Shown here piece by piece: positions 25,720 to 42,962 of a stretch of DNA of 64,000 bases (the stretch's first letter is position 1; every line of letters starts with the position of its first letter). The position numbers were made by a program, and so were the translations under genes. This DNA comes from Winogradskyella sp. KYW1333 (GTDB lineage Bacteria; Bacteroidota; Bacteroidia; Flavobacteriales; Flavobacteriaceae). Where the stretch lies: assembly GCF_003335675.1 (NCBI RefSeq), contig NZ_QPHL01000015.1, positions 186,001 through 250,000 of the forward strand. Reading direction: 5' to 3'. Under the pieces are notes generated by a model. The model was not told the DNA's origin, searched no databases, and worked only from the letters and a program-made list of their open reading frames with translations.

Positions 25720-25732
25720 AACATATAGAATC

Positions 25733-26212: not shown

Positions 26213-26230
26213 TATTATTAAAATCAATCC

Positions 26231-26845
26231 ATGTTATATAAAACCATCGAAGACACCTTAAACAGTTTAGATGTCTCAACTATTTCTGCCAAACGTAAAG
26301 AAATACTGCAACCTCTTACAGAGTATATTCAGAATAAAATCAATAACAATTCAGTTGTAAACCTAAATTTTATTTGTACGCATAATTCAAGACGGAGTCA
26401 TTTGTCTCAGATATGGGCCCAAACCATAGCACGATACTTTGATATTACTAATGTTTTTTGTTATTCAGGTGGAACTGAAGCTACTGCGTTATTCTCTTCT
26501 GCCGCCAAGGCACTCGAATCTTCTGGATTTAAAATTGACACATTATCTAAAGAATCAAATCCTGTCTATGCCATAAAATTTTCTGAGTTTGCACATCCTG
26601 TTATTGGATTTTCAAAAACTTACGATCACAGCTTTAACCCTTCTTCTCAATTTGCAGCGATTATGACTTGCTCAAGTGCAGACAAAGGCTGTCCTTTTAT
26701 TTCAGGTGCTGAAAAACGAATTCCAGTAACTTTCGAAGATCCTAAAGCATTTGACAATACACCTCAACAAGCCGAAAAATATAAAGAGCGTAGTATTCAA
26801 ATTGCAACGGAATTAAAGTATGTTTTCTCTAAACTAAAAAAATAG
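26231..26845 (+). CDS. Arsenate reductase-like low-molecular-weight phosphatase fold protein
   Basis: A 204-residue protein with the P-loop of low-molecular-weight tyrosine phosphatases and thioredoxin-type ArsC: CTHNSRRS (C-X5-R) near residues 49-56. It is larger than the 130-140 residues of classical ArsC, which is usual for the Bacteroidota ars-operon form. It probably reduces As(V) to As(III) for export by ACR3. Candidate resolving Cys residues lie in [11 protein letters not shown] near residues 146-156. It starts 18 bp after the DUF6428 gene and ends 5 bp before acr3. Confidence 0.85.
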
Positions 26846-26850
26846 ATACC

Positions 26851-27900
26851 ATGCCCAACATTAAAAAAAAGCTAAGCTTTTTAGATAGCTATTTAACACT
26901 ATGGATTTTTATGGCTATGGCAATTGGTGTTGCCATTGGTTATTTTATTCCATCATTCTCCAAATTAATTGACTCATACAGTACTGGCACAACCAATATA
27001 CCTATTGCAATTGGTCTAATATTAATGATGTATCCACCACTTGCAAAGGTTAATTACGCGTTATTACCAAAGGTATTTAAAGATGTCAGAATCTTATCAA
27101 TTTCCTTATTGTTGAATTGGATCATAGGTCCCATTTTAATGTTTTTTCTTGCCATAATATTTTTAAGGGACTACCCAGAATATATGGTAGGCCTAATATT
27201 AATAGGACTTGCAAGATGTATCGCCATGGTATTAGTTTGGAATGACTTAGCAGAAGGCAGCAATGAATATGGTGCTGGTCTAGTTGCACTAAATAGCATA
27301 TTTCAGGTTTTTGCCTATAGCTTTTACGCTTATATTTTTATAACTATTCTTCCACCTTATTTTGGGTTTGATGGTGCAATTGTAGATATATCAATTGCCA
27401 CAATTGCAGAGAGTGTTGCCCTTTATTTAGGCATACCATTTGTACTTGGAATCTTGTCTCGTTTAATATTAGTAAAACTCAAAGGTGAAGACTGGTATAC
27501 CAACAAATTTATACCAACCATCTCACCGCTAACACTTATAGCATTACTATTCACCATAATTGTTATGTTTTCTTTAAAAGGAGAACTTATTGTAGAAATA
27601 CCAATGGATGTCTTGGTTATAGCCATTCCACTACTGATTTATTTCGCCTTGATGTTTATTGTTGGATTTTTCGTCAGTAAATCGATGGGTGCCAGCTACG
27701 ATAAAAATGTTGCCATTTCATTCACAGCCTCGGGAAATAATTTTGAGCTTGCTATTGCTGTAGCCATTGCTGTATTTGGTTTAAATTCAGGACAAGCCTT
27801 TGCAGGTGTCATTGGACCTTTAGTAGAAGTACCAGCTCTTATTTTACTCGTAAGAGTTGCATTTTGGTTACGTAATAAATACTACCAAGCCAGTACTTGA
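26851..27900 (+). CDS. arsB: ACR3-family arsenite efflux permease
   Basis: A 349-residue membrane protein with about ten helices. It has the ACR3 signatures [17 protein letters not shown] (with the conserved Cys of helix IV) and [20 protein letters not shown]. It expels arsenite using the proton gradient. Length is normal. It is the last gene of the ars operon; the next gene, a TetR regulator, has its own upstream region with repeated elements. ACR3 differs from ArsB in sequence, and the symbol arsB here follows common annotation practice. Confidence 0.92.
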
Positions 27901-27912: not shown

Positions 27913-27964
27913 GTTAAACTTTGTTTAACGTTTATTAATTATCGTTAAACATTCTGTAACTTTA
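27913..27964 (+). promoter_or_regulatory. Operator/promoter of photolyase operon I: GTTTAAC-N14-GTTAAAC
   Basis: Three copies of a 7-bp half-site lie before the TetR gene: GTTAAAC (27913-27919), GTTTAAC (27923-27929) and GTTAAAC (27944-27950). The first two form a 7-3-7 inverted repeat, the last two a 7-14-7 inverted repeat. TAACTTTA (27957-27964) fits 7/8 of the -7 consensus. The 7-14-7 arrangement recurs before the second photolyase operon at 37416-37443 with a -7-like element at nearly the same distance (6 versus 5 bp), so it is very likely the binding site of a shared regulator. Confidence 0.65.
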
Positions 27965-27982
27965 CATTGTAAATGAAAAACA

Positions 27983-28639
27983 ATGGCAAAGAAAAAATCA
28001 GTTACAGAATCCGATATCATCATATCATACATGGACCATGTGCTAACCTATGGCGAGCAACCCAAGTCGATCTATGCGTTTGCTAAAACTAACAATTTTG
28101 AAGAGCAAAAGTTTTATGAATATTTTAATTCATTCGAGACTTTAGAGCAATGTGTGTTTAAAGTGTTTTTTGATAACGCACATGAGGTTTTAGAAAAAAG
28201 CGAAGACTACCTAACATTTGATTCCAGAAATAAATTATTAAGTTTTTATTATACCTTTTTTGAAATTCTAACGGCTAATAGAAGCTACGTTGTTAATGTT
28301 TTAGACGATTGTAAAAACCAATTAAAAACTGTTAAAGTATTGGCAAGGCTAAAGCAAAGATTTACAAGCTATATTGAGCATCTAAACATTAACATATTTG
28401 AAATAAACCACGAGAAGTTGGATAAAATCCAAAATAAAAGCATCAAAGAAACGGCTTGGTTACAATTGTTAGTTACAATGAAATTCTGGCTAGACGATAC
28501 GTCTTCTGAATTTGAAAAAACTGATCTATTCATTGAGAAATCTGTGAAAGCAAGTTTTGATTTTATAGACACAACCTCTTTCAAAAGTCTTATAGATTTA
28601 GGTAAGTTTTTGTATAAAGAAAAAATGCACGCCAATTAA
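27983..28639 (+). CDS. TetR-like transcriptional regulator
   Basis: A 218-residue helical protein with a TetR-type N-terminal DNA-binding region (residues about 8-60: SDIIISYMDHVL ... SIYAFAKTNNFEEQKFYEYFNSFETL), in which the recognition helix region ends with the typical FYEYF. The C-terminal domain is helical and unassigned. It is the first gene of photolyase operon I and its stop directly precedes the ABC1 kinase ATG (0-bp gap). It is the best candidate in the window for the factor that binds the GTTTAAC half-sites upstream of itself and at 37416, though a MerR/CarH-type light regulator encoded elsewhere would be an alternative. Confidence 0.75.
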   Translation: MAKKKSVTESDIIISYMDHVLTYGEQPKSIYAFAKTNNFEEQKFYEYFNSFETLEQCVFKVFFDNAHEVLEKSEDYLTFDSRNKLLSFYYTFFEILTANRSYVVNVLDDCKNQLKTVKVLARLKQRFTSYIEHLNINIFEINHEKLDKIQNKSIKETAWLQLLVTMKFWLDDTSSEFEKTDLFIEKSVKASFDFIDTTSFKSLIDLGKFLYKEKMHAN

Positions 28640-29950
28640 ATGAAGACCATAGATAGCATACCGATTACAAAAATTTCAAGAGCCTCAAAACTCGTTTCAA
28701 CTGGCGCAAAGGTTGGTGTTAATTATCTCAAGTATTATGGAGATAAAATCGTTAATCCTAAAGAAGACGCCAAAGAACGTCTTAATCAGAATAATGCGGA
28801 TGATATATATGACAGCCTTAAAAAATTAAAAGGAAGCGCACTTAAAGTGGCTCAAATGCTAAGTATGGAAAAGAGCATATTACCTCAAGCTTATGTTGAG
28901 AGGTTTTCTTTATCACAATTTTCTGTACCTCCACTTTCGCCACCATTGGTTATAAAAACCTTTAAAAAATATTTCGGAAAACATCCCGAAGAACTATATG
29001 ATACTTTCAACGCAACTTCAGTCAATGCTGCAAGCATTGGGCAAGTCCATATTGCAGATAAGAATGGGAGAAAATTTGCTGTGAAAATCCAATATCCTGG
29101 AGTTGCGGAGAGTATCACCTCTGATTTGGCGCTGGTTAAACCTATAGCCATAAAAATGTTTAATATAAAAGGAAAGGATTCTGATAAATATTTCAAAGAG
29201 GTTAAAAATAAACTTATTGAAGAAACCAATTATCTTCTTGAGTTAAATCAGAGTAATGAAGTGGTGGAAGCTTGCAAGCATATCCCAAATCTAAAATTTC
29301 CACAATATTATGAGAGTTTATCATCAGAAAGAATCATTACAATGGATTATATGGAAGGTAAACACCTTTCAGAATTTGCAACTGATAATAATGACCAAGA
29401 ATTGTCTAATAAATTAGGTCAAGCACTTTGGGATTTCTACATGTATCAAATTCATATTTTGAAGAAGGTCCATGCGGATCCACATCCGGGGAATTTCTTA
29501 ATATCAGAAGAAGGTCATTTAATTGCGCTAGATTTTGGATGTATGAAAGCTATACCAGATGAGTTTTATAAACCCTATTTTGAATTAGCTCAAAAGAAAT
29601 GTATTGACAACCCTAAAGCTTTTACTGAGAAAATGTACGAGCTCGAGATTTTAAGACATGACGATTCAAAACAAGAAATAGACTTCTTTACTTCCATGTT
29701 TCATGAACTATTAAGCCTATTCACCCAACCTTTTCATAATGAAACTTTTGATTTTTCAGATCCTGAGTTTTTCAATAAAGTTGGTGAAATTGGACAGAAA
29801 TATTCAAAAAGTACTGAACTACGCAATATGAATGGTAACAGAGGTTCAACTCACTTTATATACATCAACAGAACATTTTTCGGTTTATATAACTTAATGT
29901 TTGATCTCAAAGCTGAGAATATTAAAATCAACAATTTCATAAACCTATAA
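28640..29950 (+). CDS. ABC1/UbiB-family atypical kinase
   Basis: A 436-residue ABC1 (ADCK/UbiB) protein. The KxGQ-like segment reads LKGSALKVAQMLSME (about residues 56-70), the Ala-rich nucleotide loop is NAASIGQVH, the lysine is in FAVKIQYPG, the catalytic loop has DPHPGNF and the metal site LDFG. There is no C-terminal membrane anchor like that of UbiB. Relatives support quinone or other isoprenoid lipid metabolism, but the substrate is unknown in most. It is second in operon I, directly after the TetR gene, and one base before the flavin reductase. Co-occurrence with photolyase genes is seen in other marine bacteria, which suggests a role in photo-oxidative stress. Confidence 0.88.
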   Translation: MKTIDSIPITKISRASKLVSTGAKVGVNYLKYYGDKIVNPKEDAKERLNQNNADDIYDSLKKLKGSALKVAQMLSMEKSILPQAYVERFSLSQFSVPPLSPPLVIKTFKKYFGKHPEELYDTFNATSVNAASIGQVHIADKNGRKFAVKIQYPGVAESITSDLALVKPIAIKMFNIKGKDSDKYFKEVKNKLIEETNYLLELNQSNEVVEACKHIPNLKFPQYYESLSSERIITMDYMEGKHLSEFATDNNDQELSNKLGQALWDFYMYQIHILKKVHADPHPGNFLISEEGHLIALDFGCMKAIPDEFYKPYFELAQKKCIDNPKAFTEKMYELEILRHDDSKQEIDFFTSMFHELLSLFTQPFHNETFDFSDPEFFNKVGEIGQKYSKSTELRNMNGNRGSTHFIYINRTFFGLYNLMFDLKAENIKINNFINL

Positions 29951-29951
29951 G

Positions 29952-30590
29952 ATGGCTAAATTCAGTTTAGATGATATCAACCAAATGCACCATTTATATA
30001 GGATTAACTTAATAAATAGTTGTTCTGGGTACAAATCTGCAAACCTCATTGGCACAAAGGATAGTGCCGGTACGAGTAATGTTGCTGTATTCAGTTCCAT
30101 AACACATTTAGGCTCCAATCCTGGCTTATTAGGTTTTTTTTTAAGACCTACCACTGTTATTCGTAATACCTATGATAATATCAAAACGACAGGTAAATAT
30201 ACGCTAAACCATATCCATGAAGGCATTTTAGAAGATGCTCATCATACATCTGCAAAGTATGATTCGTCTATATCAGAATTTGATGTAACGTCCTTAATTG
30301 AAGAATTTAAGGACGATTTTATTGCACCATTTGTAAAAGGATGCCCTATTCAATTGGCTATGAGCTATGTTGAAGAGTATCCCATAAAAGCGAATAACAC
30401 AATTTTACTTATTGGGCAAATTGAAAAACTTTATGTTCCTGATAACTTGCTAGAAAATGATGGTTTTATTAATTTATCAAAGGGTAAAGTAGCGACCATT
30501 AACGGACTAGATGGTTATGCAGTGCCAAAATTAAAAAAACGATTAGAATACCAACGACCAAAGCCAGAATTTGCAATAATCAATGACTAA
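29952..30590 (+). CDS. Flavin reductase-like protein
   Basis: A 212-residue protein of the flavin-reductase-like FMN-binding split barrel (SCSGYKSANLIGTKDSAG, SNVAVFSSITHLGSNPGLLGF, followed by the family's RNTYDNIKTTGKYTLN). It probably binds FMN and reduces flavin with NAD(P)H or uses it in another reduction. In operon I it lies 1 bp after the ABC1 kinase, and its stop overlaps the ATG of the SDR gene (TAATG). Supply of reduced flavin to the downstream FAD photolyases is a possible but unproven link. Confidence 0.85.
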   Translation: MAKFSLDDINQMHHLYRINLINSCSGYKSANLIGTKDSAGTSNVAVFSSITHLGSNPGLLGFFLRPTTVIRNTYDNIKTTGKYTLNHIHEGILEDAHHTSAKYDSSISEFDVTSLIEEFKDDFIAPFVKGCPIQLAMSYVEEYPIKANNTILLIGQIEKLYVPDNLLENDGFINLSKGKVATINGLDGYAVPKLKKRLEYQRPKPEFAIIND

Positions 30591-32011
30591 TGCGAATATT
30601 AATTACAGGTACAACAGGCTATATAGCCAAAAGACTAGCTTTACAGTTACTAGAAGATAAGCACGAACTTATTTGCTGTGTCCGTGATACTAATCGTATT
30701 CCAGATGAAATAGCTGAGCATCCTCTGTGCTCTTTTATAAAAATAGATTTTCTAAGTCCAGAACCCAACAAAGTTCCAATAAATATTGAGGTTGCCTATT
30801 ACCTAATTCATTCCATGGCCACTGACGCGGATGATTTTGAATCCTTAGAACGTCGGTGTGCACAAAATTTTAAAAATCTTGTTGAGGCCACCCAATGTAA
30901 GCAAGTTATTTATCTGAGCGGTATTGTTAATGATCATTCGTTATCAAAACATCTAAAATCTAGATTACAGGTAGAAGAAACCCTTAAATCAGAGAAATAT
31001 GCGCTAACAACATTCAGAGCAGGTATTATTGTTGGTAGCGGAAGTGCTTCTTTTGAAATTATACGAGACATCGTTGAAAAACTCCCGGTGATGATTACAC
31101 CAAAATGGCTAAATACCAAAACACAGCCTTTAGGCATTAGAGATGTCCTAACCTATTTATCAGGTGCGCTAGAAAAAGAAGCGCTTTACAATAGCTCTTA
31201 TGATATTTTCGGACCTGAAATACTGACCTATAAGGAAATGTTATTACAGTTTGCTGAAGTAAGAGGACTAAAACGATATATTTATACTTTACCAGTTTTG
31301 ACACCAAAACTCTCTTCTTACTGGCTTTATTTTGTAACTTCAACATCGTTTCAATTAGCTCAAGCATTAGTAGATAGTATGAAGGTTGAAGTCATTGGTA
31401 AACCAAGTGATATCAATAATCATATTAGGATCCAACCCATGACCTATAAAAAGGCTGTAGAGTTGGCGTTTCAGCGGATTCAACAAAATTCTGTGATCTC
31501 TAGTTGGAAAGATGCCGTAAGTAGTGGAGTTTTTAAAGACCAACTATCTAAACATATAGAGCTACCACAATATGGCTGTTTTAAGGATATTCGCTCCAAG
31601 ACGATTATCGATGAAGAATTTACACTGAATCAGATTTGGGGAATTGGTGGTCGAAATGGCTGGTATAGTTTCAACGGTTTATGGAAGATCAGGGGTTACG
31701 TCGATAAATTATTTGGCGGTGTAGGATTACGGCGAGGTAGAACACATGACACGTATCTAGAAGCTGGTGACCCACTTGATTTCTGGCGTGTACTTTTTGC
31801 TGATAAAAAAGATAAAAGACTTCTTTTATTTGCTGAAATGAAACTGCCAGGTGAGGCCTGGTTAGAATTTAAAATTGTAAAAGATAGGTTATATCAACGT
31901 GCTGTTTTTAGACCAAAAGGTGTTTGGGGAAGATTGTATTGGTACATGATTTCACCCTTACATGCTTTTGTATTTGAAGGAATGATTAACGCCTTAGTTA
32001 AACCAAAATGA
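30590..32011 (+). CDS. SDR / NAD(P)-binding protein with DUF2867 C-terminus
   Basis: A 473-residue two-domain protein. Residues 1 to about 300 form an atypical short-chain dehydrogenase fold with [13 protein letters not shown] (residues 4-16) for NAD(P) binding and the YLIHSMA and YLSGIV strands of the NmrA/complex-I-39-kDa-like group. Residues about 325-473 are DUF2867 ([24 protein letters not shown] ... GGVGLRRGR ... DFWRV), a lipid-binding-like domain. Substrate unknown. Its stop overlaps the start of the DUF2256 gene (ATGA). This fused form is regularly found beside photolyase genes. Confidence 0.88.
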
Positions 32012-32154
32012 AAGGTGTTAAAAAACAACATCTACCAGAAAAAATATGTCCTGTTTGCGAGCGACAATTTACTTGGCGCAAAAAATGGGAAAAATACTGG
32101 GAAAACGTAAAATATTGCAGTGAAAAATGCAGAAGACAGAAAAATATAGCATAG
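32008..32154 (+). CDS. DUF2256 zinc-ribbon-like small protein
   Basis: A 48-residue basic protein with two Cys pairs, CPVC (residues 14-17) and CSEKC (37-41), separated by an aromatic-basic segment with three Trp. This is the DUF2256 pattern, a small zinc-binding protein of unknown role that nearly always lies beside photolyase or cryptochrome genes. The ATG overlaps the stop of the SDR gene and its 3' end overlaps the cryptochrome DASH gene by 28 bp, so all three are translationally coupled. Confidence 0.88.
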
Positions 32155-33434
32155 TTTGGTTTAGAAATGACCTTAGAATAGCAGATAATGCTGTGTTGAC
32201 TAAAGCCAGTGAACAAGCGGACAAGGTTATTGGACTTTATTGTTTTGATCCAAGGCATTTTGATAAGAACAGATTTGGTTTTAAAAAGATCGAAAAATAC
32301 CGTACTGGGTTTTTAATTGAATCAATTCATAATCTTAAAGCCCAACTCGATGCACTAAATATAGACTTACTCGTCTACCATGACTTGCCAGAAAACGTGA
32401 TTCCAAAAATTTGTGAGGCAAATCAAATAACTGATATCTACCTTCAAAAGGAATGGACCCAAGAGGAAGTTGATACAGAAAATACTGTGAAAGCTCAAAC
32501 TACAGATGTCAACTGGCATCACATTTATAACCAGTTTTTATATCACCCTGAGGATATCAATTTTGATGTTTCTAAAACACCTCAAGTTTTTACAGTTTTT
32601 AGAAAGAAACTAGAAAAATATATAGATATACGAGAGGAATCGTCAACAACAAAACTAAGCCAATTTAATAGGATTGAAAATAATACCAGCATACCAAAAT
32701 TATCAGATTTAAGTTTTGTAGACTTTAAATCCCATCCTAATTCTGCCTTTCCTTTTAAAGGTGGCGAAACAGAAGCTATAAATCGACTTAACGATTACTT
32801 CTTTAAAACTAAGAAACTAGGATTTTATAAGAAAACCAGAAATGGTTTAGCTGGTGTTGATTATAGTTCTAAGTTTTCACCTTGGCTGGCCAATGGTTGT
32901 ATTTCTGCACGAACCATCTATTGGAAGATTAAACAGTTTGAAAAAGAACATTTTAAAAACCAATCGACCTACTGGCTCATTTTTGAGTTGATTTGGCGTG
33001 ACTATTTTAAATATGTGTCGCTAAAATATGGTAACCAAATCTTTAAATTAGAAGGCATACTTCAAAAAGATTATGAATGGTCTAAAAATCAAAACCAATT
33101 ACAAAAATGGATAAATGGTGAAACACAATCTGACTTTGTAAATGCCAATATGATTGAATTAAAGGAAACGGGTTGGATGAGTAATAGGGGACGACAAAAT
33201 GTAGCCTCTTATTTCGCTAAAGAACTAGAATTAGATTGGCGTATAGGTGCTTCTTATTTTGAGTCTTTGCTCTTAGATTATGACGTACATAGCAATTATG
33301 GTAATTGGATGTATGTCGCAGGTGTGGGTAATGATCCGAGGGACAGAAAGTTTAATGTACAACTGCAAGCAGAGCGCTATGATGCTAGCGGAAAATTTAG
33401 ACGAATTTGGTTACAACCTAGTTTGTTTATATAA
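32127..33434 (+). CDS. DASH-family cryptochrome
   Basis: A 435-residue photolyase/cryptochrome protein. The N-terminal alpha/beta antenna domain begins [16 protein letters not shown]; the C-terminal FAD domain carries [34 protein letters not shown] and [17 protein letters not shown], all diagnostic of the DASH group. DASH proteins repair cyclobutane dimers mainly in single-stranded DNA and may also signal; their usual antenna is methenyl-tetrahydrofolate. Length is normal for bacterial DASH. First photolyase paralogue of operon I, overlapping DUF2256. Confidence 0.92.
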
Positions 33435-33491
33435 AAAAACCAAATCATCCAAATGACTAAATGATGTGTAAATAATTAAAAAGAACTAAAA

Positions 33492-34403
33492 ATGGTTTTA
33501 CTAAATAAAATATATCCAGTTTTTCTATCAGAGAATACCAAAAAGCGAATTGAGAAAGTTATTCTATATGTAGCTTTGTTGGGCTTCTTTATCCATTTGG
33601 CTCTTATCTTTCTGTCAAAATTTAATATTATTAATTTTCATTTAGAATCAGAATTATTTAAAAATCCTATTTCAGCCATCTACACACCATTTTCATTTAT
33701 TTTAATTTATGAGGTATATCTCTTAATCTATTATTTACCAAAATCCTTTACCACATACATAACCAAACAATATGAGATTATCACGCTAATAATCATACGA
33801 AAGTTATTTAAAGATTTATCAGGACTTCAACTGACGTCAAATTGGTTTGAGATAAAAGATGATTTACAGTTTACATATGATATTTTGGCGTCCATTGTTC
33901 TATTTTATTTAATATTTCAATTTCAAAAACAAGGAAAACGCAAAAACAACCAACCCAAGATTGATGTGCCAAAAATTGAAAGATTTATAAATCGAAAAAA
34001 AATATTAGCAGTTTTTTTGGTTCCAACATTTTTCATAATGGCATTAATTACATTCTCAAGTTGGTTAGATAGTATTTCATTTACGACAGAAGGTTTAACA
34101 AGTTTTGAAACAATTAATAACCTATTTTTTGACGAGTTCTTTACCGTTTTAATTTTAGTGGATGTTGTTTTATTACTGATCTCTTTCTTTTATACAGACA
34201 AGTTCCACAAAATAATAAGAAACTCAGGTTTTATAGTTTCCACTATTTTAATTCGGTTATCCTTTGGAGTGAGTGGTTTGGTAAGTACGGTTTTAATAAT
34301 ATCTGCTGTATTGTTTGGATTGGCAATTATTCTAATTCATAACAAGTTTGAAACCAACAATTCATCTAGTAATAAACCTACAATAAAATTCAAGAGACTA
34401 TGA
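33492..34403 (+). CDS. Multi-span membrane protein of the photolyase cluster, function unknown
   Basis: A 303-residue protein with about six hydrophobic helices: two near residues 23-45 and 62-84, one near 130-145, one at about 170-190 and two or three at 215-283. Between the early helices and the later group lie charged cytoplasmic loops (QKQGKRKNNQPKIDVPKIERF). I recognise no catalytic or transport motif. It sits between the DASH cryptochrome (57-bp gap) and the FeS-type photolyase homologue (4-bp ATGA overlap), so it is co-translated with a photolyase. A possible light- or stress-linked membrane sensor or channel is speculation. Confidence 0.75.
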   Translation: MVLLNKIYPVFLSENTKKRIEKVILYVALLGFFIHLALIFLSKFNIINFHLESELFKNPISAIYTPFSFILIYEVYLLIYYLPKSFTTYITKQYEIITLIIIRKLFKDLSGLQLTSNWFEIKDDLQFTYDILASIVLFYLIFQFQKQGKRKNNQPKIDVPKIERFINRKKILAVFLVPTFFIMALITFSSWLDSISFTTEGLTSFETINNLFFDEFFTVLILVDVVLLLISFFYTDKFHKIIRNSGFIVSTILIRLSFGVSGLVSTVLIISAVLFGLAIILIHNKFETNNSSSNKPTIKFKRL

Positions 34404-35872
34404 CAGCAGATGCAGTACTCCTATTCCCACATCAGCTATTTAAGGATACACCAATTCTAAACTTAAATTGTGATGTTTATTTGGTTGAAGAGTTTTTGTT
34501 TTTTTCGCATTACAAATTCCACAAGCAAAAAATTGCATTTCACAGGGCATCAATGAAAGCTTATGCAGACTTTTTAAAAGACAAGGGGCTTTCAGTAAAT
34601 TATATTGAGGCTACGTCAGAGACATCTGATGTCAGAGAATTGATTCCTGAATTAATTCATAAAGGTCTCGAAACGCTTCATATAATTGACCCATCCGATA
34701 ACTGGTTAGAGAAACATATAAAATCTGTTTCTGAATCAATAGCTGTAGAATGGTACGAGAGTCCTTTATTTATAAACACCAAGGAAGAATTGAGTTCTTT
34801 CTTTAAACCTTCAAAAAAAAAATTTTTTCAAACCTCGTTTTACAAGCAACAACGTAAAGATCGAGACATACTCATGGTTAATGACCAACCAGAAGGCGGA
34901 AAACTAACCTATGACTCTGAAAATCGCAAGAAATATCCCAAGGATAAAACACCACCAAGTATTCAGTTTCCTGATATATCAAAATATCACAATGAAGCAA
35001 TTTCTTATGTAGAGAAAAACTTTGATTCCCACTATGGTGAATTGAATGATTTTATTAATTATCCTATGGATTTTAAATCAGCTGAACAATGGTTACAACA
35101 ATTTTTTGAGTATCGATTTCACGAGTTTGGCGCTTATGAAGATGCCATTGTTAAAGAAGAACATTTTTTAAATCACAGCTTGCTTTCGCCATTAATCAAT
35201 GTAGGTCTATTGCATCCATTAGATGTCATAGATAAAGCGATTGATTATGCCAGGTCCAATGATGTGCCTATAAATTCAACAGAAGGCTTTGTGCGCCAGA
35301 TTTTAGGTTGGCGTGAATTTATTCGTGGCGTTTACCAAGTAAAGGGTACTGAAGAACGTACTAAAAACTTTTGGAATTTCAATAGAAAAATTCCTAAGTC
35401 CTTTTATGATGGTACAACTGGCATACAACCTATTGACGATGTTATAAAGAAAGTAAACAAAACCGCTTATGCACATCACATAGAACGCCTTATGATACTC
35501 GGCAATTTTATGGTATTGTGCGAGTTCCATCCAGATGAAGTGTACGAATGGTTTATGGAGTTATTTATTGATGCTTACGATTGGGTTATGGTACCAAACG
35601 TTTACGGTATGAGCTTGTATGCAGATGGTGGACTCATGTCTACCAAACCCTACATAAGCAGTAGCAACTACATTATGAAAATGAGCAACTATTCTAAAGG
35701 TGCTTGGCAAGCAACTTGGGATGGGCTCTTTTGGACTTTTATGGATAAACATCGTGAATTCTTTTTAAGCAATCCTAGGTTAGGGATGTTAATCAGAACA
35801 TTCGATAAAATGAAACAAGAAACTAGGGAAAAGCACTTTAAAAATGCTGAATCTTTCTTATCACAATTGTAA
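34400..35872 (+). CDS. FeS-BCP/CryPro-type photolyase homologue without the Cys ligand pair
   Basis: A 490-residue protein of the prokaryotic (6-4) photolyase group (PhrB/FeS-BCP, CryPro). Marks are LLFPHQLF at the start, VRQILGWREFIRG, IERLMILGNFM, DAYDWVMVPNVYGMS and GGLMSTKPYISSSNYIMKM. Classical members carry a [4Fe-4S] cluster, two ligands of which are the Cys pair in a YCxxC segment just after this last motif. Here the segment reads NYSKGAWQ (residues 430-437), so the pair is absent and the cluster is probably missing. FAD-binding features remain. It overlaps the membrane-protein gene by 4 bp and directly abuts the next photolyase. Repair of (6-4) photoproducts or light sensing are both possible. 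Confidence 0.85.
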   Translation: MTADAVLLFPHQLFKDTPILNLNCDVYLVEEFLFFSHYKFHKQKIAFHRASMKAYADFLKDKGLSVNYIEATSETSDVRELIPELIHKGLETLHIIDPSDNWLEKHIKSVSESIAVEWYESPLFINTKEELSSFFKPSKKKFFQTSFYKQQRKDRDILMVNDQPEGGKLTYDSENRKKYPKDKTPPSIQFPDISKYHNEAISYVEKNFDSHYGELNDFINYPMDFKSAEQWLQQFFEYRFHEFGAYEDAIVKEEHFLNHSLLSPLINVGLLHPLDVIDKAIDYARSNDVPINSTEGFVRQILGWREFIRGVYQVKGTEERTKNFWNFNRKIPKSFYDGTTGIQPIDDVIKKVNKTAYAHHIERLMILGNFMVLCEFHPDEVYEWFMELFIDAYDWVMVPNVYGMSLYADGGLMSTKPYISSSNYIMKMSNYSKGAWQATWDGLFWTFMDKHREFFLSNPRLGMLIRTFDKMKQETREKHFKNAESFLSQL

Positions 35873-37363
35873 ATGGCAAGCAAAAAACGGATAAATGTAG
35901 TTTGGTTAAAGCGTGATTTGAGACTTCAAGATAACGAAGCCATTTCCAATGCCTTAAAAAGTGGCAAACCTACTCTTCTACTCTATGTCTTTGAGCATAT
36001 TCTATTAAATGATGGGCATTACAGTGAACGACACTTTAACTTTATAAAGGAATCAATTAGAGATATCAATGAACAACTTAAGCTATATAATACCAAGGTT
36101 TTAGTAGTTATAAATGATATACAGAGCACTTTCAATATCATACAAGAATTCTATAAAATTGATACTATATATTCTCATGTTGAAACCGGGTTACTCATAA
36201 CCTATAACAGAGATAAAGAAATTACACGTTACTGCAGAAATAACCTTATAGAGTGGATTGAATCTAAAAATAATGGTGTTGAACGAGGTTTGGTAAATCG
36301 CGATAATTGGTTTGAAAACTGGGAAAGCTACATGTATCAACCACAAGAGGTATTTCAACCAAAGGAGAGTCAATTGTTATTTATTGATAAGATTCTAGAA
36401 TTAGAAAGTGTATTAAAAGAGACTGATTTAAGTACACCTAAAGACACACCATTTCAAAAAGGCGGAAGTACAATAGCCTGGAAATATGCTAATTCTTTCT
36501 TTGAGGACAGGCATGAAGATTACATGTTCAATATTTCTAAACCTGAAGCATCAAGAAGTAGTTGTAGTAGATTATCACCTTACATTGCATGGGGAAATGT
36601 TTCTATTCGCCAAATATTTCAAAAAGGTCAAGAACTAAAAAATAAGACTTCAGATAAACGCCATATTGGTGCCTTTTTATCACGATTACGCTGGCAAGCA
36701 CATTTTATTCAGAAGTTTGAAATGGAACACACCATGGAAAATGCCAGTGTAAACAAAGGCTATCATAAACTTAAGAAAAGTATATCAGAAGACTACCAAA
36801 AGGCTTGGCGTGAAGGGCAAACTGGTTTTCCACTAGTAGATGCAAGTATGCGCTGTCTAGTAGAAACGGGTTATATTAATTTTAGGATGCGTGCTATGCT
36901 GGTGTCATTCTTTACGCATATATTATGGCAACCTTGGCAAGATGCTACGGAACATTTATCACAGCAATTTTTAGATTTCGAGCCAGGGATTCACTTTCCG
37001 CAACTGCAAATGCAAGCAGGTGAAACTGGTATAAATAATCTCAGAATTTATAATCCAACCGTTAATAGCCTGAAACACGATCCAGATGCTCTTTTCATCA
37101 AAAAATGGGTCCCTGAACTTACCCATTTAGATATACCTTTTATACATGAGCCTTATCTTATGACAGAGTTAGAACAAGGCTTATATTATTTTAAATTGGG
37201 CAAAGATTATCCAAATCCTATTGTCGATATTAAGGAAAATCGAAAGCGTGCCAGTGAAATTCTCTGGAATATGAAAGAAGATCCGGAAGTAGTGAAAGAA
37301 AGTTTTCGCATTTTAAAACGACATACTCTACAAGACAGAAATCGAATGCTTCGTAATGAGTAA
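35873..37363 (+). CDS. Cryptochrome/photolyase family protein, third paralogue
   Basis: A 496-residue photolyase-fold protein. The antenna domain begins [17 protein letters not shown] and the FAD domain contains [62 protein letters not shown] and [17 protein letters not shown]. It is longer than class I enzymes and has the [11 protein letters not shown] variant that marks a separate Bacteroidota/proteobacterial group; whether it repairs CPDs or acts as a photoreceptor is not settled by sequence. It starts directly after the stop of the FeS-type homologue, and is the last gene of operon I. Confidence 0.85.
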
Positions 37364-37415
37364 TTTCAAAAAAAAGCAGTCATATTCCTACAATCATAAT
37401 TCTCTGTTAATTTTT

Positions 37416-37456
37416 GTTTAACTATTTATTATAAAAGTTAAACATTTGTATATTTA
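37416..37456 (+). promoter_or_regulatory. Operator/promoter of photolyase operon II: GTTTAAC-N14-GTTAAAC
   Basis: GTTTAAC (37416-37422) and GTTAAAC (37437-37443) are an inverted pair with a 14-nt spacer, the same spacing as at 27923-27950. TATATTTA (37449-37456) fits 7/8 of the -7 consensus and begins 6 nt after the last half-site, against 7 nt in the other promoter. The start codon of the first gene is at 37464, so the leader would be very short. Confidence 0.65.
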
Positions 37457-37463: not shown

Positions 37464-37895
37464 ATGATTCTTAATACGACACATTATAACTTTGACCATA
37501 AACAGATTATCGCTGATTTAGTAGGAGGTTCCTTTAGTTTGGTACAGAAATTGAAAATGAAAGGTATAGGCTCAAAACGCATGATTATTGATGAAGTTAG
37601 CCCTAATATGCAGACTATGATGAATAGGGTTTCTGATATTAATTATGCAAATATAGAGCTCAGACCAAAAGGTATTTTAGTAATGATTAACCAAGGTTTA
37701 AAAAACTTTACATGGATTATACCATACTATCAGTTAGTTATTTATAAGGTAAATGGTTCTAGTTTGCATGCTCAGGGTCGTTTTATCCATTTTAGAAATA
37801 GCAAAACTTTCAAGGAGAACAAAAAATTCTTTGATAAGCTATTAGATGAGAAAGTAAAGTATGATATGCAATATGCGATACCTGAATTTATATGA
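37464..37895 (+). CDS. Conserved hypothetical protein of the photolyase cluster (143 aa)
   Basis: About 143 residues from the ATG at 37464; a TTG at 37446 would add six residues but lies in the promoter region. The protein is soluble-looking, with an N-terminal helical part (FDHKQIIADLVGGSFSLVQKLK) and a beta-rich C-terminal half (ILVMINQGLKNFTWIIPYYQLVIYK ... GRFIHFRN) that recalls a PH-like fold. No known motif. It is the first gene of operon II, directly behind the shared operator, and overlaps the DUF2805 gene by 4 bp. Function unknown. Confidence 0.75.
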   Translation: MILNTTHYNFDHKQIIADLVGGSFSLVQKLKMKGIGSKRMIIDEVSPNMQTMMNRVSDINYANIELRPKGILVMINQGLKNFTWIIPYYQLVIYKVNGSSLHAQGRFIHFRNSKTFKENKKFFDKLLDEKVKYDMQYAIPEFI

Positions 37896-38164
37896 ATTTA
37901 GAACTAAAGGATATTGATCGCATAATTGAAATGGCTTGGGAAGACAGAACACCTTTTGAAGCAATTACATTTCAGTTTGGTTTAAAAGAGCAAGAAGTCA
38001 TTGAGCTGATGCGCAAAGAAATGAAACCTAGCAGTTTCAGAATGTGGAGAGAACGAGTTCAAGGAAGAGCAACCAAACACAGTAAAAAAAGAACGTTTGA
38101 CAAAGGCAGATTTAAATGTTCGCGTCAAAGAACAATAACAAATAACTCTATTTCAAAACGTTAA
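37892..38164 (+). CDS. TIGR03643 / DUF2805 small protein
   Basis: A 90-residue basic protein. The first 70 residues (LKDIDRIIEMAWEDRTPFEAI, GLKEQEVIELMRKEMKPSSFRMWRERVQGR) match the TIGR03643/DUF2805 family, a helix-turn-helix-like small protein that regularly accompanies photolyase genes, as DUF2256 does. The C-terminal tail is basic and of low complexity. It could bind nucleic acid, but this has not been shown. ATGA overlap with the preceding gene shows coupling. Confidence 0.85.
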   Translation: MNLELKDIDRIIEMAWEDRTPFEAITFQFGLKEQEVIELMRKEMKPSSFRMWRERVQGRATKHSKKRTFDKGRFKCSRQRTITNNSISKR

Positions 38165-38219
38165 CACGTGCTTTGATTTAAGCTTGGAGTACTTAAAGAC
38201 AGCACATAAAAAAGATGCT

Positions 38220-38912
38220 ATGAACACAGAAGCAATTTCCAAAACAAATGGTCACAAACTTAATGGATTTACCCATGAAGATATTGGAGACGACCATTTA
38301 TTCACAAGTTTAGAGACACCAATGAAAGCTAATGCTTTCGATATGTCTAACCACGAGAAGAAAAATCGAATTTCCATATTATTTTCAGAAATAATGGATG
38401 TTTTAGGTTTAGATTTAACGGACGATTCATTAAAAGGCACACCAGACCGTGTAGCAAAAATGTATGTTGAAGAAATATTTTCAGGTTTAGATCCTGAGAA
38501 TAAGCCAAAAGTAGCTTTGTTTGACAACAAATACCAGTACAATCAAATGCTAGTTGAAAAAAACATTACGTTTTATTCAAACTGTGAGCATCATTTTGTA
38601 CCAATAATTGGAAAGGCACATATAGCATACAAGTCTTCAGGTAAGGTTATTGGATTGTCCAAATTAAATCGTATAGTACAGTACTATGCTAAACGTCCGC
38701 AAGTTCAAGAGCGATTAACTAATCAAATTGCCAACGAACTAAAAACAGTTTTAGAAACAGAAGATGTGGCGGTTATAATTGACGCCAAACATCTTTGTGT
38801 TTCATCAAGAGGTGTTAAAGATGATACATCTGCGACAGTAACGACTTATTATGGTGGAGAGTTTAATACACCAGAGAAAATTTCAGAATTACAAAATTAC
38901 ATAAACAATTAG
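38220..38912 (+). CDS. folE: GTP cyclohydrolase I
   Basis: About 230 residues from the ATG at 38220; an in-frame TTG at 38184 would add 12. The zinc and substrate motifs are NCEHHFVPI, with Cys and His ligands, GLSKLNRIVQYYAKRPQVQERLTNQI and HLCVSSRGV, all complete. FolE turns GTP into 7,8-dihydroneopterin triphosphate, the first step of folate and pterin synthesis. An N-terminal extension of about 50 polar residues precedes the catalytic core. Its place among photolyase genes suggests supply of the folate antenna (MTHF) used by DASH and class I enzymes, or of a pterin; this is inference from context. Confidence 0.93.
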   Translation: MNTEAISKTNGHKLNGFTHEDIGDDHLFTSLETPMKANAFDMSNHEKKNRISILFSEIMDVLGLDLTDDSLKGTPDRVAKMYVEEIFSGLDPENKPKVALFDNKYQYNQMLVEKNITFYSNCEHHFVPIIGKAHIAYKSSGKVIGLSKLNRIVQYYAKRPQVQERLTNQIANELKTVLETEDVAVIIDAKHLCVSSRGVKDDTSATVTTYYGGEFNTPEKISELQNYINN

Positions 38913-38914: not shown

Positions 38915-39142
38915 ATGGATATTTTAGAAAGAGCAACAGAATTTGAAAACAGAAAGTTTTCTTTTAAGACAACAAGTGATAGAATTTTAGCAGCTAGAGA
39001 AGCCAAAGAAATCATCCTAGGTGTTAATGAAGTATACAAGCAGAAAAAAGACGCAAAACTTATGGAATTAATGAAGCGTTTAACTGTTATAAAACAAAAA
39101 ATAGAAAAACGACTAAAAGGTCGTCCCCTAACCGCAGCGTAA
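38915..39142 (+). CDS. Small helical conserved hypothetical protein (75 aa)
   Basis: A 75-residue, highly charged protein that looks wholly alpha-helical (FSFKTTSDRILAAREAKEII, LMELMKRLTVIKQKIEKRLKG). It starts 2 bp after folE and ends 3 bp before the SDR gene. No known motif. The frame is supported by an ATG start and continuous spacing within the operon. Function unknown. Confidence 0.7.
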   Translation: MDILERATEFENRKFSFKTTSDRILAAREAKEIILGVNEVYKQKKDAKLMELMKRLTVIKQKIEKRLKGRPLTAA

Positions 39143-39145: not shown

Positions 39146-39832
39146 ATGAGCAGATTAATAGTGATTGGAGGAAGCAAAGGTATAGGCAATGCAATTGTCT
39201 CGTCTTTGCTTTCTTCTTATGATGAAATAGTAAACATCAGTAGAACCGAACCGATACAAACGGCAGGTAATTTAACGCATTACAATTGCGATATATTAAA
39301 TGACGAATTACCAGAAATAGATTCTGCTGACGGCCTAGTGTATTGTCCTGGAAGTATCAACCTTAAACCCATAAACCGTTTAAGTATTGATGATTTTAAA
39401 AATGATTTTGACATAAACGTTCTGGGAGCAGTAAAGGCAATTCAAAAGTATTTGCCAGCACTTAAAAACGGAAACAAACCGTCAGTAGTATTATTTAGTA
39501 CTGTGGCAGCTAAATTAGGAATGCCATTTCATGCTAGTGTAGCGGCTTCAAAATCAGCAGTAGAAGGACTTACCAAATCACTTGGAGCCGAATTAGCACC
39601 TACAATACGGGTTAATGCAATAGCGCCAACGGTAACTGATACAGATTTGGCTTCGAAGCTATTGCGTAATGAACGAATGATAGAAAACATGAATGAGCGT
39701 CATCCGCTTAAAAAATATTTACAACCACAAGAAGTGGCTGATATGGCTGCATTTTTATTATCTGATAAGGCCGCGTCTTTATCAGGACAAATTTTTGAAA
39801 TGGATTGCGGAATAGTAAGTTTTAAACTTTAA
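39146..39832 (+). CDS. Short-chain dehydrogenase-like protein lacking the catalytic Tyr
   Basis: A 228-residue SDR fold. The cofactor loop is GGSKGIG (residues 8-14), N91 lies in DINVLGAV and S118 in LFSTVAA. The classical YxxxK site reads V132-A-A-S-K136, so the catalytic Tyr is Val, while Lys is kept. The rest (GLTKSLGAELAPTIRVNAIAPT) is typical. It may have lost dehydrogenase activity, use another residue, or serve as a binding protein. It lies in operon II between the 75-residue protein and glutathione peroxidase, with 3-4 bp gaps. Confidence 0.85.
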   Translation: MSRLIVIGGSKGIGNAIVSSLLSSYDEIVNISRTEPIQTAGNLTHYNCDILNDELPEIDSADGLVYCPGSINLKPINRLSIDDFKNDFDINVLGAVKAIQKYLPALKNGNKPSVVLFSTVAAKLGMPFHASVAASKSAVEGLTKSLGAELAPTIRVNAIAPTVTDTDLASKLLRNERMIENMNERHPLKKYLQPQEVADMAAFLLSDKAASLSGQIFEMDCGIVSFKL

Positions 39833-39836: not shown

Positions 39837-40376
39837 ATGAACCCATTAAAAGCCTTTGTTAGCACACTAACAGGAACTGAAAGTGATGTTGTTGAAAATG
39901 CAACAAAATCGATCTATGATATTGAAATAAACAGTTTAATCGGTAATCCTATAAATCTATCAGAGTTTAAAGGAAAGAAATTATTATTTGTAAATGTTGC
40001 TTCTAAATGCGGATTTACCCCACAATATAAAGAACTTCAAGAGTTAAGCGATTACTACAAAAATCAATTGGTAGTTATTGGTGTGCCTTGCAACCAGTTT
40101 GGGAGGCAAGAACCCGGCAATTCAGACCAAATTCAGGAGTTTTGCCAAGTCAATTATGGTGTTTCGTTCTTAATTACAGAAAAGATTGACGTAAAAGGTT
40201 CTAACCAGCACCGACTCTATGCTTGGCTAACAAAAAAGTATATAAATGGTAGACAAAACTCTTCAGTGAAATGGAATTTCCAGAAATATCTAGTTGACGA
40301 AAACGGTGAGTTTCTAGATTACTTTTATTCTATTACCAAACCGTTTAACGATAGAATCCTAAAATATTTAAAATAA
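39837..40376 (+). CDS. Glutathione peroxidase-like (Cys) peroxidase
   Basis: A 179-residue thioredoxin-fold peroxidase. The peroxidatic residue is C58 in NVASKCGFTPQ (Cys, not selenocysteine); the Gln is in CNQFGRQEPG, which also holds a second Cys suitable as resolving residue, and the Trp/Asn pair is in VKWNFQKYLVD. Such non-seleno enzymes usually take electrons from thioredoxin and reduce lipid or organic hydroperoxides. The first 25 residues are an extra N-terminal segment with no clear signal peptide. Its place in the photolyase operon fits a role against light-driven peroxidation. Confidence 0.92.
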   Translation: MNPLKAFVSTLTGTESDVVENATKSIYDIEINSLIGNPINLSEFKGKKLLFVNVASKCGFTPQYKELQELSDYYKNQLVVIGVPCNQFGRQEPGNSDQIQEFCQVNYGVSFLITEKIDVKGSNQHRLYAWLTKKYINGRQNSSVKWNFQKYLVDENGEFLDYFYSITKPFNDRILKYLK

Positions 40377-40555: not shown

Positions 40556-41020
40556 TTGAAGCAAATCCATTATATCATATTATTTTTAATTCTCAATTTT
40601 GTTGGACTAGCACTCGGCAATTTCTTTATGGGAGATGGCCCCAATGGCATATGGTATAACAGCCTTAATAAAGCATCTTGGACACCACCAGGTTGGGTTT
40701 TTCGTGTTGTTTGGACACTAATAATGATATGTTTTTCCATTTACCTGTCATTTTTATTTTCTCTAAGAAAATCCAAATACGTTACAACCATATACGGCAT
40801 CGCTTTATTACTTAATATAAGTTGGAATTATTTGTTCTTTAACCAGCATTTTACAAGTATTGCGCTATATAATCTCATTGCATTAGCTTTGGTTATCATA
40901 TACTTATTTATAAGTTTTGGTGATGATGAATTAAGCAAAATGAGATATCTGCTAGTGCCATATATATTATGGCTGTGTATTGCAATATCTCTAAACGGCT
41001 ATGTTGTTTTGAATAACTAG
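40556..41020 (+). CDS. tspO: TspO/MBR-family membrane protein
   Basis: A 154-residue five-helix protein. The family signature is WYNSLNKASWTPPGWVFRVVWTLIM, followed by NISWNYLFF. TspO proteins bind porphyrins and can degrade them in light, and in other bacteria they link tetrapyrrole level or stress to gene expression. The only start that keeps the first helix is the TTG at 40556; the next in-frame Met would cut it away. It lies 2 bp after the Lacal_2735 gene and 2 bp before the SRPBCC gene. TspO with photolyases and a peroxidase fits a photo-oxidative stress regulon. Confidence 0.9.
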   Translation: MKQIHYIILFLILNFVGLALGNFFMGDGPNGIWYNSLNKASWTPPGWVFRVVWTLIMICFSIYLSFLFSLRKSKYVTTIYGIALLLNISWNYLFFNQHFTSIALYNLIALALVIIYLFISFGDDELSKMRYLLVPYILWLCIAISLNGYVVLNN

Positions 41021-41022: not shown

Positions 41023-41484
41023 ATGAAAATATTTACCCTACATAAAAAACAAAAATTACCTATTTCATTAGATGAAGCATGGGCTTTTTTGTGTAATCCT
41101 GCAAATCTCTCAAAGTTGACACCTCAAGAAATGAATATGAAAATTATTTCTGGTGCTGATAGACCAATGTATGCTGGTCAAGTAATACAATATAGTGTAA
41201 GACCAATACCAGGATTTAGAACTCAATGGGTGAGCGAAATCACTCAATACAAGGACAAAACGTATTTTATTGATCTCCAATTGTATGGCCCTTATGCCTT
41301 TTGGCACCACAAACATTTTGTACATAAAATAGAAGGTGGTGTAGAAATGGAAGATATTATTGACTATAAAGTTCCTTTTGGAATACTTGGCAGGCTTTTG
41401 CATCCGGTTTTGGTGAAACCAAAACTTGAAGGTATTTTTAACTACAGAAAAGAACAACTCGAACAACTTTTCGGAACCTATTAA
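41023..41484 (+). CDS. SRPBCC-fold ligand-binding protein
   Basis: A 153-residue START-like/SRPBCC protein (LPISLDEAWAFLCNPANLSKLTPQEM ... FRTQWVSEITQYKDKTYFIDLQLYGPYAFWHHKHFVH). The family forms a deep cavity for hydrophobic ligands; members of this type, sometimes labelled cell-division-inhibitor-like, commonly lie next to photolyase genes. No catalytic residue is evident. Gaps to TspO and the photolyase are 2 bp each. Confidence 0.85.
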   Translation: MKIFTLHKKQKLPISLDEAWAFLCNPANLSKLTPQEMNMKIISGADRPMYAGQVIQYSVRPIPGFRTQWVSEITQYKDKTYFIDLQLYGPYAFWHHKHFVHKIEGGVEMEDIIDYKVPFGILGRLLHPVLVKPKLEGIFNYRKEQLEQLFGTY

Positions 41485-41486: not shown

Positions 41487-42791
41487 ATGCAAACACCTTT
41501 AAGTATATTTTGGTTTAGACGAGATCTTAGATTAGACGATAATATTGGTTTATATAATGCCTTAAAAAGTGGGCAAAATGTTTTACCAATTTTTATTTTC
41601 GATTCTGAAATTTTAGAAAAATTACCGAGAGATGATGCTCGTGTCACTTTTATACATGATACACTTCAAAGCATAAGAGAAAAACTTCAGAGTGATTTTG
41701 GGAGTAGTATTGCGATCTTTCATGGTAAACCAATTGATATTTATAAAAATCTGATTAAAGAATATAACATAACAGAAGTATTCACCAATCACGATTATGA
41801 ACCCTACGCAACGGAAAGAGATACTCAATTAAAAACACTTTTAGAATCAGAAAATATTGCCTTCAATACGTTTAAAGACCAAGTCATATTTGAAAAGGAC
41901 GAGGTCGTTAAAAAAGACGGAAATCCTTATGTAGTCTACACACCTTACATGAGAACCTGGAAGGAAAAATTTAAAACTATCAACTTTAAATTTTGTCCGT
42001 CTAAGAAAGAACTAAACAATTGTGTAAAAAACATCAACCTTCCGAATTTAAGTTTAGAAGATATAGGATTTACAAGATCCAATCAACCTATTAAACCTTA
42101 TGAGGTTACTCCAAGGTTAATCCAAGAATATGAAGCTACTAGAAACTTTCCGGCTAAAGATACAACATCACGTTTAGGACCTCATCTAAGATTCGGTACT
42201 GTGAGTATCAGAAAAATGGTTGACAAAGCCATACAAGAAAAGAACGAAATATTTTGGCAAGAGCTTATCTGGCGCGAATTTTTTATGCAAATTCTATGGC
42301 ATTTTCCTCATACAAAAGATCAGTCTTTTAAACCTAAATACGATAGGATTGAATGGCGAAATGATGAAGATGAATTCAAATTATGGTGCCAAGGTAAAAC
42401 AGGCTATCCATTGGTTGATGCAGGTATGCGACAATTGAATGAAACTGGATTTATGCACAATCGCGTTCGTATGCTGGTTGGTAGTTTTTTGTGTAAACAC
42501 CTACTTATTGATTGGCGTTGGGGCGAAGCTTATTTTGCAGAGAAGTTACACGATTATGAAATGGCAAGCAATGTTGGTAATTGGCAGTGGGTAGCTGGTT
42601 CTGGTGTAGATGCAGCGCCTTATTTTAGAATATTTAATCCTACGTCACAAATTCAAAAATTCGATAAGAATTTAGAATACATAAAAAAATGGGTGCCAGA
42701 ATTTCAGGAACTCATATATTCAGAAAAAATGGTAGAGCATAAAATGGCAAGAGAACGCTGCTTAACTACTTATAAAGCCGCATTGAATTAA
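41487..42791 (+). CDS. phrB: Class I deoxyribodipyrimidine (CPD) photolyase
   Basis: A 434-residue photolyase with the antenna domain start IFWFRRDLRLDDNIGL and the FAD/DNA domain motifs TSRLGPHLRFGTVSIR, FWQELIWREFFMQIL, GYPLVDAGMRQLNETGFMHNRVRML, WRWGEAYFAEKLHDYEMASNVGNWQWVAGSGVDAAPYFRIFNP. These match class I CPD photolyase closely. It splits cyclobutane pyrimidine dimers using blue light and reduced FAD. It is the last gene of operon II and is followed by a palindrome and a terminator. Confidence 0.95.
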   Translation: MQTPLSIFWFRRDLRLDDNIGLYNALKSGQNVLPIFIFDSEILEKLPRDDARVTFIHDTLQSIREKLQSDFGSSIAIFHGKPIDIYKNLIKEYNITEVFTNHDYEPYATERDTQLKTLLESENIAFNTFKDQVIFEKDEVVKKDGNPYVVYTPYMRTWKEKFKTINFKFCPSKKELNNCVKNINLPNLSLEDIGFTRSNQPIKPYEVTPRLIQEYEATRNFPAKDTTSRLGPHLRFGTVSIRKMVDKAIQEKNEIFWQELIWREFFMQILWHFPHTKDQSFKPKYDRIEWRNDEDEFKLWCQGKTGYPLVDAGMRQLNETGFMHNRVRMLVGSFLCKHLLIDWRWGEAYFAEKLHDYEMASNVGNWQWVAGSGVDAAPYFRIFNPTSQIQKFDKNLEYIKKWVPEFQELIYSEKMVEHKMARERCLTTYKAALN

Positions 42792-42894: not shown

Positions 42895-42922
42895 CTGAAA
42901 ATAACCATTTCAAAAACAATTT

Positions 42923-42950
42923 AAAAGCTCTGATGTGCCTCAGAGCTTTT
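42923..42950 (+). terminator. Terminator of photolyase operon II
   Basis: AAAAGCTCTGA pairs perfectly with TCAGAGCTTTT around the loop TGTGCC. It works for plus-strand transcripts leaving phrB; the T-run is only four, inside the stem. Confidence 0.8.
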
Positions 42951-42962
42951 GCTTTATTCAAA

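Follow-up and report, generated by a model that had tools for sequence, protein, structure and literature searches.

We report that the two photolyase operons of Winogradskyella sp. KYW1333 are preceded by the same element, GTTTAAC-N14-GTTAAAC, which by comparison with relatives is a conserved operator with a fixed layout. Its likely regulator is a CarH-like protein of the MerR family and not the TetR-like protein encoded directly behind the first copy. Both copies lie in a 64-kb stretch of contig NZ_QPHL01000015.1 (positions 186,001 to 250,000), referred to below as the window. We consider it probable that both sites serve as operators in a single regulon under this MerR protein, whose gene heads a row of merR and crtI-, crtB-, and crtZ-like genes outside the window, and that the regulon works by a mechanism involving vitamin B12 and light. 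The operator, its layout, its targets, and its link to the MerR protein are drawn from sequence comparison.

One operator before both photolyase operons

Exact matches to the dyad stand before both operons, as an initial annotation of the window had proposed, and a third half-site, GTTAAAC, lies upstream of the first (Table 1). Two details of that annotation needed correction. The 14-nt spacer that it called identical is shared in length but not in sequence, and the −7-like box, which it placed 6 to 7 nt behind each dyad, follows at 6 nt at site 1 but at 5 nt at site 2. TAnnTTTG is the −7 type of Bacteroidota promoters.

The window contains two exact 7-14-7 matches, whereas 300 random windows from a Markov-1 model averaged 0.0033, in line with the earlier estimate that chance occurrence is small. 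The whole 2.81-Mb genome holds two exact matches, and the reversed control pattern occurs once. Looser matching gave no enrichment: with 3 mismatches, the window yielded 4 matches against 7.6 expected, and similarly loose searching of the genome (2 to 3 mismatches) yielded 94, fewer than the 166 of the reversed control. Matches are therefore meaningful only if they are near-exact or anchored at a promoter. Among the five one-mismatch sites of the genome, one precedes a fasciclin gene, three fall inside open reading frames (ORFs), and one is intergenic and lacks TAnnTTT at 5 to 6 bp. Counts of 7-14-7 matches across 397 genomes were discarded as weak evidence, since the reversed control pattern also matches many genomes, and a scan for the sigma70 consensus was uninformative (68 found, 68.6 expected).

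Because GTTWAAC is itself nearly palindromic, the inverted pair can be read equally well as boxes at −10, 0, and +21, offsets that correspond to one and two helical turns. Conservation of the flanks, TGTTTAAC ... GTTAAACA, speaks for the inverted reading.

The annotation had suggested looking for the motif at orthologous promoters in related genomes, and there it is strongly conserved. We took conservation counts from 80 named loci chosen by the TetR-like protein alone (the best 80 of 454), since two other sets, of 51 and 58 loci, include some that were fetched for having the site. The upstream region of the TetR gene could be scored in 79 of them (one was too short), and X37464, the first gene of the DUF2805/folE operon, was found in 70. 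At least 12 of the 14 operator positions matched before the TetR gene in 77/79 loci (39 perfect) and before X37464 in 68/70 (24 perfect). The same score was reached in 1 of 558 other upstream regions of these loci, in 9/1,580 (TetR) and 8/1,400 (X37464) Markov shuffles, and in 65/1,580 and 39/1,400 trials, respectively, with twenty other spacer lengths. One locus that failed the score, L302, has a spacer of 15. The motif is thus neither restricted to this genome nor equally frequent at other sites, and a single regulator common to both operons, as first proposed, is well supported.

The aligned promoters approximate TGTTAAAATTTTGTTTAAC-N14-GTTAAACATTTTGTATCTTT. A third box, GTTAA, occurs at −10 in 52/77 TetR and 40/68 X37464 promoters (background, 0.0035 per position), and TAnnTTT occurs at +6 in 65/77 and 54/68. 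When 60 relatives were searched initially, 15 had the extended site, every one of them from the same genus, and the control gave none. In a wider survey, it was present in 10 of 40 genomes of the family and in 1 of 206 outside it, the control again giving none.

A CarH-like MerR protein as the likely regulator

The annotation had named two candidate regulators, the TetR protein encoded after site 1 and a light-responsive MerR/CarH-like factor elsewhere. The latter is supported by gene neighborhood, half-sites in its own promoter, the core sequence of the half-sites, and covariation. The candidate is a 300-amino-acid protein (G000:C6:20334-21233) encoded beside carotenoid genes and is one of two MerR_1-matching proteins of the genome, the other having 109 amino acids. 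It matches the MerR helix-turn-helix (HTH) family PF13411 (E = 2e-15), and among solved structures its closest relatives are those of CarH (E = 5e-12, residues 8 to 253). CarH is defined by the adenosyl-cap motif Wx9EH together with a long B12 motif, according to the available portions of PMC8156234 and PMC9304148. Wx9EH is present in 86 and ExHxxG in 84 of 87 genomes; the latter reads EIHELG in the window's genome. A search of this genome with PF02310 (B12-binding) reported three long ORFs only and not the MerR protein, which PF13411 did find. Against the curated NCBIfam CarH model NF052513 it scored 67 bits (cut-off, 400), and we call it CarH-like because it falls outside strict membership. 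To judge from these sequence features, it probably works like CarH.

The merR loci tie this protein to the operator. Of 51 such loci, 41 were chosen from the MerR match list regardless of site and 10 were fetched because the site was present. A dyad matching at least 13 of 14 positions lies between merR and crtI in 26 of the 41 unselected loci and in 36 of all 51. Here a TAnnTTTG-like box falls inside the dyad, unlike at the photolyase promoters, where it lies downstream. The promoter of merR itself carries TAnnTT[TC]GTTTA, with a half-site on the −7 box about 20 to 25 nt upstream of the start, in 44/51 loci, and GTATTTTTGTTTAAAC is found there in the window's genome. Four Arenibacter loci have merR 240 to 290 bp upstream of the TetR gene (two of them annotated), with the dyad between the genes or before merR, and merR is likewise upstream of the TetR gene in G270.

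A role for the TetR-like protein as the regulator, bound at site 1 and site 2 alike, is an understandable proposal, because its gene is the first after site 1, the dyad precedes it in nearly all relatives (which were themselves chosen by it), and a TetR fold is predicted with good confidence (predicted local distance difference test [pLDDT] score, 86; Foldseek match to 3c07, E = 1e-4). We nevertheless regard it as very unlikely. Twelve of the 51 merR-locus genomes, G180 and G267 included, are absent from the list of TetR matches (E ≤ 1e-25), and 9 of these 12 carry the dyad at crtI (5 of the 8 that had not been picked for the dyad). Conversely, of 28 TetR-matching genomes that were searched for the MerR protein, 9 gave no match at E ≤ 1e-15, namely, four genomes that are 99% complete and five drafts that are 76 to 93% complete. 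None of the four (G118, G355, G286, and G238) has the dyad before the TetR match, although G355 keeps its right half; in G118 the TetR-ABC1 pair is retained without it.

The protein itself also argues against this proposal. Only the C-terminal family PF17931 matches; the N-terminal DNA-binding domain (PF00440) was not reported at E ≤ 0.001, and the helix at the HTH position is, by reading, rich in acidic residues. The gene adjoins an ABC1/COQ8-like kinase gene, and its product matches TIGR02396 (COQ9) below the cut-off (19 bits versus 74.6, E = 8e-4), which together make a lipid or quinone role plausible, although no COQ9 structure is among the best 50 of 775 fold matches. We speculate that the two proteins (27983-29950) form a possible COQ9/COQ8-like pair within a light-stress operon. 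An ABC1 match was found in all 80 named loci.

Operator variants and the MerR recognition helix

Within the recognition helix of the MerR protein, residue x of HT[IL]R-x-WE is Ile in 65, Lys in 21, and Val in 1 of the 87 genomes; the stretch reads RIWEKRY in the window's genome and RKWE[ST]RY in Lys types. A variant operator, GTCTAAY-N14-RTTAGAC, was searched for in 54 genomes (21 Lys, 6 divergent non-Lys, and 27 with a close MerR protein, in only part of which the helix residue was read). Exact copies occurred in 12/21 Lys genomes, 0/6 divergent non-Lys genomes, and 1/27 close-MerR genomes, the last inside an ORF. The Lys genomes together hold 13 such sites, of which 11 precede TetR, ABC1, SDR-DUF2867, folE-operon, or merR genes; one of the others is inside an ORF and one is beside mnmA. 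The 140 bp preceding merR contain TAGACA in 18/21 Lys but 3/65 Ile genomes (Fisher's test, 1e-12, uncorrected for kinship) and TAAACA in 11/21 and 52/65, respectively.

In a tree, the 21 Lys proteins form one clade (support, 98/92) beside G084 and G311, both of which have Ile; G084 has GTTTAAC boxes and G311 has mixed ones. As far as this tree indicates, the box switch sits on the branch of the residue change and not where the proteins differ most. The TetR proteins (partial genes) are 45 to 57% identical to that of the window with GTTTAAC dyads and 52 to 54% identical with GTCTAAY. The operator variant, in these alignments, tracks the MerR type, and TetR identity does not track the box type, a further point against the TetR-like protein as regulator.

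The same covariation bears on the idea that the motif is not an operator but a promoter part read by an alternative sigma factor. The fixed distance to the −7-like box would suit such an element, as would the extracytoplasmic function (ECF) sigma gene beside one distant copy. However, the element is a dyad, the dyad at crtI overlaps the −7 box instead of lying 6 bp upstream of it, and the boxes change with a residue of the MerR recognition helix, so that we hold this idea to be highly improbable. The distant copy is in G532, a member of another family, where the extended dyad lies between a CarH-like merR and the ECF sigma gene (L348:1501-1534). We take this arrangement to recall LitR-LitS of Streptomyces.

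Further sites near carotenoid, fasciclin, and rhodopsin genes

Among 20 regions fetched for having the site, 10 have it between merR and crtI-crtB-like genes and 3 before fasciclin genes (Pfam was run on L026, L034, and L043). Fasciclin genes were also seen behind GTTTAAC-type sites. In L212, L213, L216, and L219, a merR of the divergent clade (three Lys types and, in L219, an Ile type) is divergent from a fasciclin or fasciclin-looking gene (Pfam was run on L212).

In G378 (L345:1470-1531, contig G378:C1), the space separating a rhodopsin gene (PF01036) from blh (PF15461), which encodes beta-carotene dioxygenase, is filled by two 7-14-7 dyads. Judging from where these dyads lie, rhodopsin and retinal synthesis may be under the same operator in this species.

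Observations that weigh against the MerR protein as light-responsive regulator

Several observations do not fit the regulon proposed here or limit what it can claim. The dyad is absent from 15 of the 51 merR-crtI junctions, including that of the window's genome, where merR and crtI are separated by 8 bp, and the merR upstream regions hold single half-sites but no 7-14-7 dyad. Four of the five MerR-lacking drafts keep the dyad, for which missing contigs may be the reason. Among the four 99%-complete MerR-lacking genomes, two have TetR matches of low identity (41% in G286 and 44% in G238) that may be paralogs, and an ABC1 neighbor was seen in G118 alone.

The covariation is similarly imperfect. 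A dyad of the genome's own type is missing before the TetR match in 3/11 Ile-type genomes (G186, G212, and G337) and in 2/8 Lys-type genomes (G073 and G226), and mixed boxes occur in G311 (Ile) and G288 (Lys). The exact GTCTAAY dyad is missing in 9 of the 21 Lys genomes, and TAAACA lies near merR in Lys genomes as well. Since the Lys types form one clade, the covariation counts as one event and not 21.

As for the protein, the SxV/T...GG tail of the long B12 motif (E/DxHx2G...x41 SxV/T x22-27 GG) is intact in 0/87 genomes, so the cofactor is uncertain. An AlphaFold model of the MerR protein together with four Arenibacter sequences reached a pLDDT score of 46 and was not used.

Proposed mechanism and significance

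We infer binding by the MerR protein, repression rather than activation, and B12 and light as the signals. In the dark, a MerR oligomer, probably with adenosylcobalamin, would bind the TGTTTAAC/GTTAAACA half-sites, which contain the core TnnACA and lie 21 bp apart in inverted orientation, and also the third box 10 bp upstream. At the photolyase operons, the oligomer would cover DNA just upstream of the −7 box, and at merR and, in relatives, crtI, it would cover the −7 box itself; merR would thus repress itself. Light would break the B12 bond and the oligomer would leave, allowing the photolyase, pterin, carotenoid, and fasciclin genes to be transcribed. Dark repression and relief by light are accordingly predicted for these four sets of genes.

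Alternatively, the MerR protein could bind the same sites and activate, or answer redox state, cobalamin level, or singlet oxygen instead of light. MerR proteins can activate (available text of PMC8156234), the boxes of the photolyase promoters lie upstream of −7, and no conserved −33 element was seen in the aligned promoters; the broken tail of the B12 motif could accommodate another signal. Yet the half-site on the −7 box at crtI and merR fits repression, the CarH/LitR proteins described in the accessible parts of PMC9304148 and PMC9758184 repress, and the nearly invariant Wx9EH motif speaks against a different signal. We regard these variants as unlikely compared with light-relieved repression.

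If the latter is correct, the findings bear on light sensing in marine flavobacteria and its use in setting DNA repair, pigments, and rhodopsins. A more tentative extension, which we put forward as possible only, is that a single CarH-like photoreceptor-repressor with its own operator code serves as a master light switch of Flavobacteriaceae. Under its control would stand carotenoids, photolyases, pterins, and a COQ8-like quinone module, joined in some species by rhodopsin and retinal synthesis. The code would have changed once, through an Ile-to-Lys change in the recognition helix, with the sites rewritten in parallel across the regulon, and the altered tail of the B12 motif may reflect a change in the cobalamin used or in its chemistry with light. 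The analysis offers a named protein, a site of 28 bp, and a target list in cultured Winogradskyella, Algibacter, and Arenibacter relatives, as well as a natural specificity switch that is testable with two proteins and two DNA probes.

Genes of the two operons

The operons behind both sites contain photolyase-type genes, as initially described (Table 1). The nearest named relatives are Winogradskyella species, W. vincentii being 91% identical in the TetR protein. The gene at 33492 had a tblastn match in just 2 of the 80 named loci and may therefore have been inserted in this lineage into an operon that is stable in other respects. X37464 adjoins DUF2805/folE where these are annotated. ORFs of 71 to 76 amino acids, compared by eye, occupy the place of the 75-amino-acid protein in the clusters of relatives. 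Directly upstream of site 1, positions 25393-27900 hold arsR-, arsC-, and acr3-like genes (named by reading); an acr3 match was found in just 16 of the 80 named loci, some of which are short.

Table 1. Sites and genes of the two operons in the window
Feature	Position	Strand
Third half-site of site 1, GTTAAAC, at −10 relative to dyad 1	27913..27919	+
Operator dyad 1, GTTTAAC-N14-GTTAAAC (boxes 27923-27929 and 27944-27950)	27923..27950	+
−7-like box TAACTTTA, 6 nt after second box of dyad 1	27957..27964	+
TetR-fold protein encoded at the head of operon 1, PF17931 TetR_C_23	27983..28639	+
ABC1/COQ8-like atypical kinase	28640..29950	+
Flavin reductase-like protein	29952..30590	+
SDR-DUF2867 protein	30590..32011	+
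DASH cryptochrome	32127..33434	+
Protein with no family over cut-off; membrane protein by reading of sequence	33492..34403	+
Photolyase-related protein, DPRP, PF04244	34400..35872	+
Cryptochrome/photolyase	35873..37363	+
Degenerate third half-site GTTAATT, 10-bp offset as at site 1	37406..37412	+
Operator dyad 2, GTTTAAC-N14-GTTAAAC (boxes 37416-37422 and 37437-37443)	37416..37443	+
−7-like box TATATTTA, 5 nt after second box of dyad 2	37449..37456	+
X37464, conserved 143-amino-acid protein with no family, first gene of operon 2	37464..37895	+
DUF2805/TIGR03643 protein	37892..38164	+
GTP cyclohydrolase I, folE (start chosen by us; ORF begins at 38184)	38220..38912	+
Small 75-amino-acid protein	38915..39142	+
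Short-chain dehydrogenase	39146..39832	+
Glutathione peroxidase	39837..40376	+
TspO/MBR protein	40556..41020	+
SRPBCC/polyketide-cyclase-like protein, match below cut-off	41023..41484	+
Photolyase	41487..42791	+
Terminator-like hairpin after operon 2	42922..42951	+

Comparison with known systems

Among the matches listed in a literature search that covered few subscription papers, we found no CarH/LitR regulon and no description of this operator in Flavobacteriia. A photolyase gene cluster is enriched in proteorhodopsin-bearing Flavobacteriia (PMC5932025). The available part of that text describes no operator or regulator for it and has no match for MerR, cryptochrome, B12, or GTP cyclohydrolase, the word "regulator" occurring in a reference only. 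MliR of Bizionia argentinensis (PMC9478572) is a MerR-type regulator from the same bacterial family. We rejected it as an earlier description of our candidate because, in the accessible text, it has 109 residues, no effector domain, and a role in iron homeostasis; by length alone it resembles the other MerR_1 protein of the window's genome and not the 300-amino-acid protein.

The class II LitR proteins PplR1 and PmlR2 of Pseudomonas offer a parallel in their targets. According to the available portions of PMC9758184, they control a light-induced regulon with phrB, cryB, and folE through half-sites that come in pairs with a constant spacer, T(G/A)TACA-N12-TGTA(C/T)A. The flavobacterial half-sites differ in sequence (GTTTAAC/GTTAAAC) and in pitch (21 bp against 18). 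Class II LitR proteins also keep the four-helix B12 domain alone, and PmlR2 is relieved by a light-oxygen-voltage (LOV) protein, unlike the mechanism proposed here.

The closest likeness is to CarH and class I LitR of Thermus, Bacillus megaterium, and Myxococcus, with which the flavobacterial MerR protein shares a MerR HTH domain and a B12-binding_2 domain, Wx9EH, ExHxxG, a gene beside crt genes, and, in relatives, sites that overlap carotenoid promoters. CarH repeats hold the core TnnACA (PMC9304148, accessible text), to which TAAACA and TAGACA in the flavobacterial half-sites conform. The flavobacterial protein differs from CarH in the tail of its B12 motif. The CarH operator consists of tandem 11-bp direct repeats (nnnnTnnACAn), whereas the half-sites here are inverted, 21 bp apart, and accompanied by a box at −10. 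The targets also differ from those of CarH, since they appear to include photolyase, folE, TetR-ABC1, and fasciclin genes.

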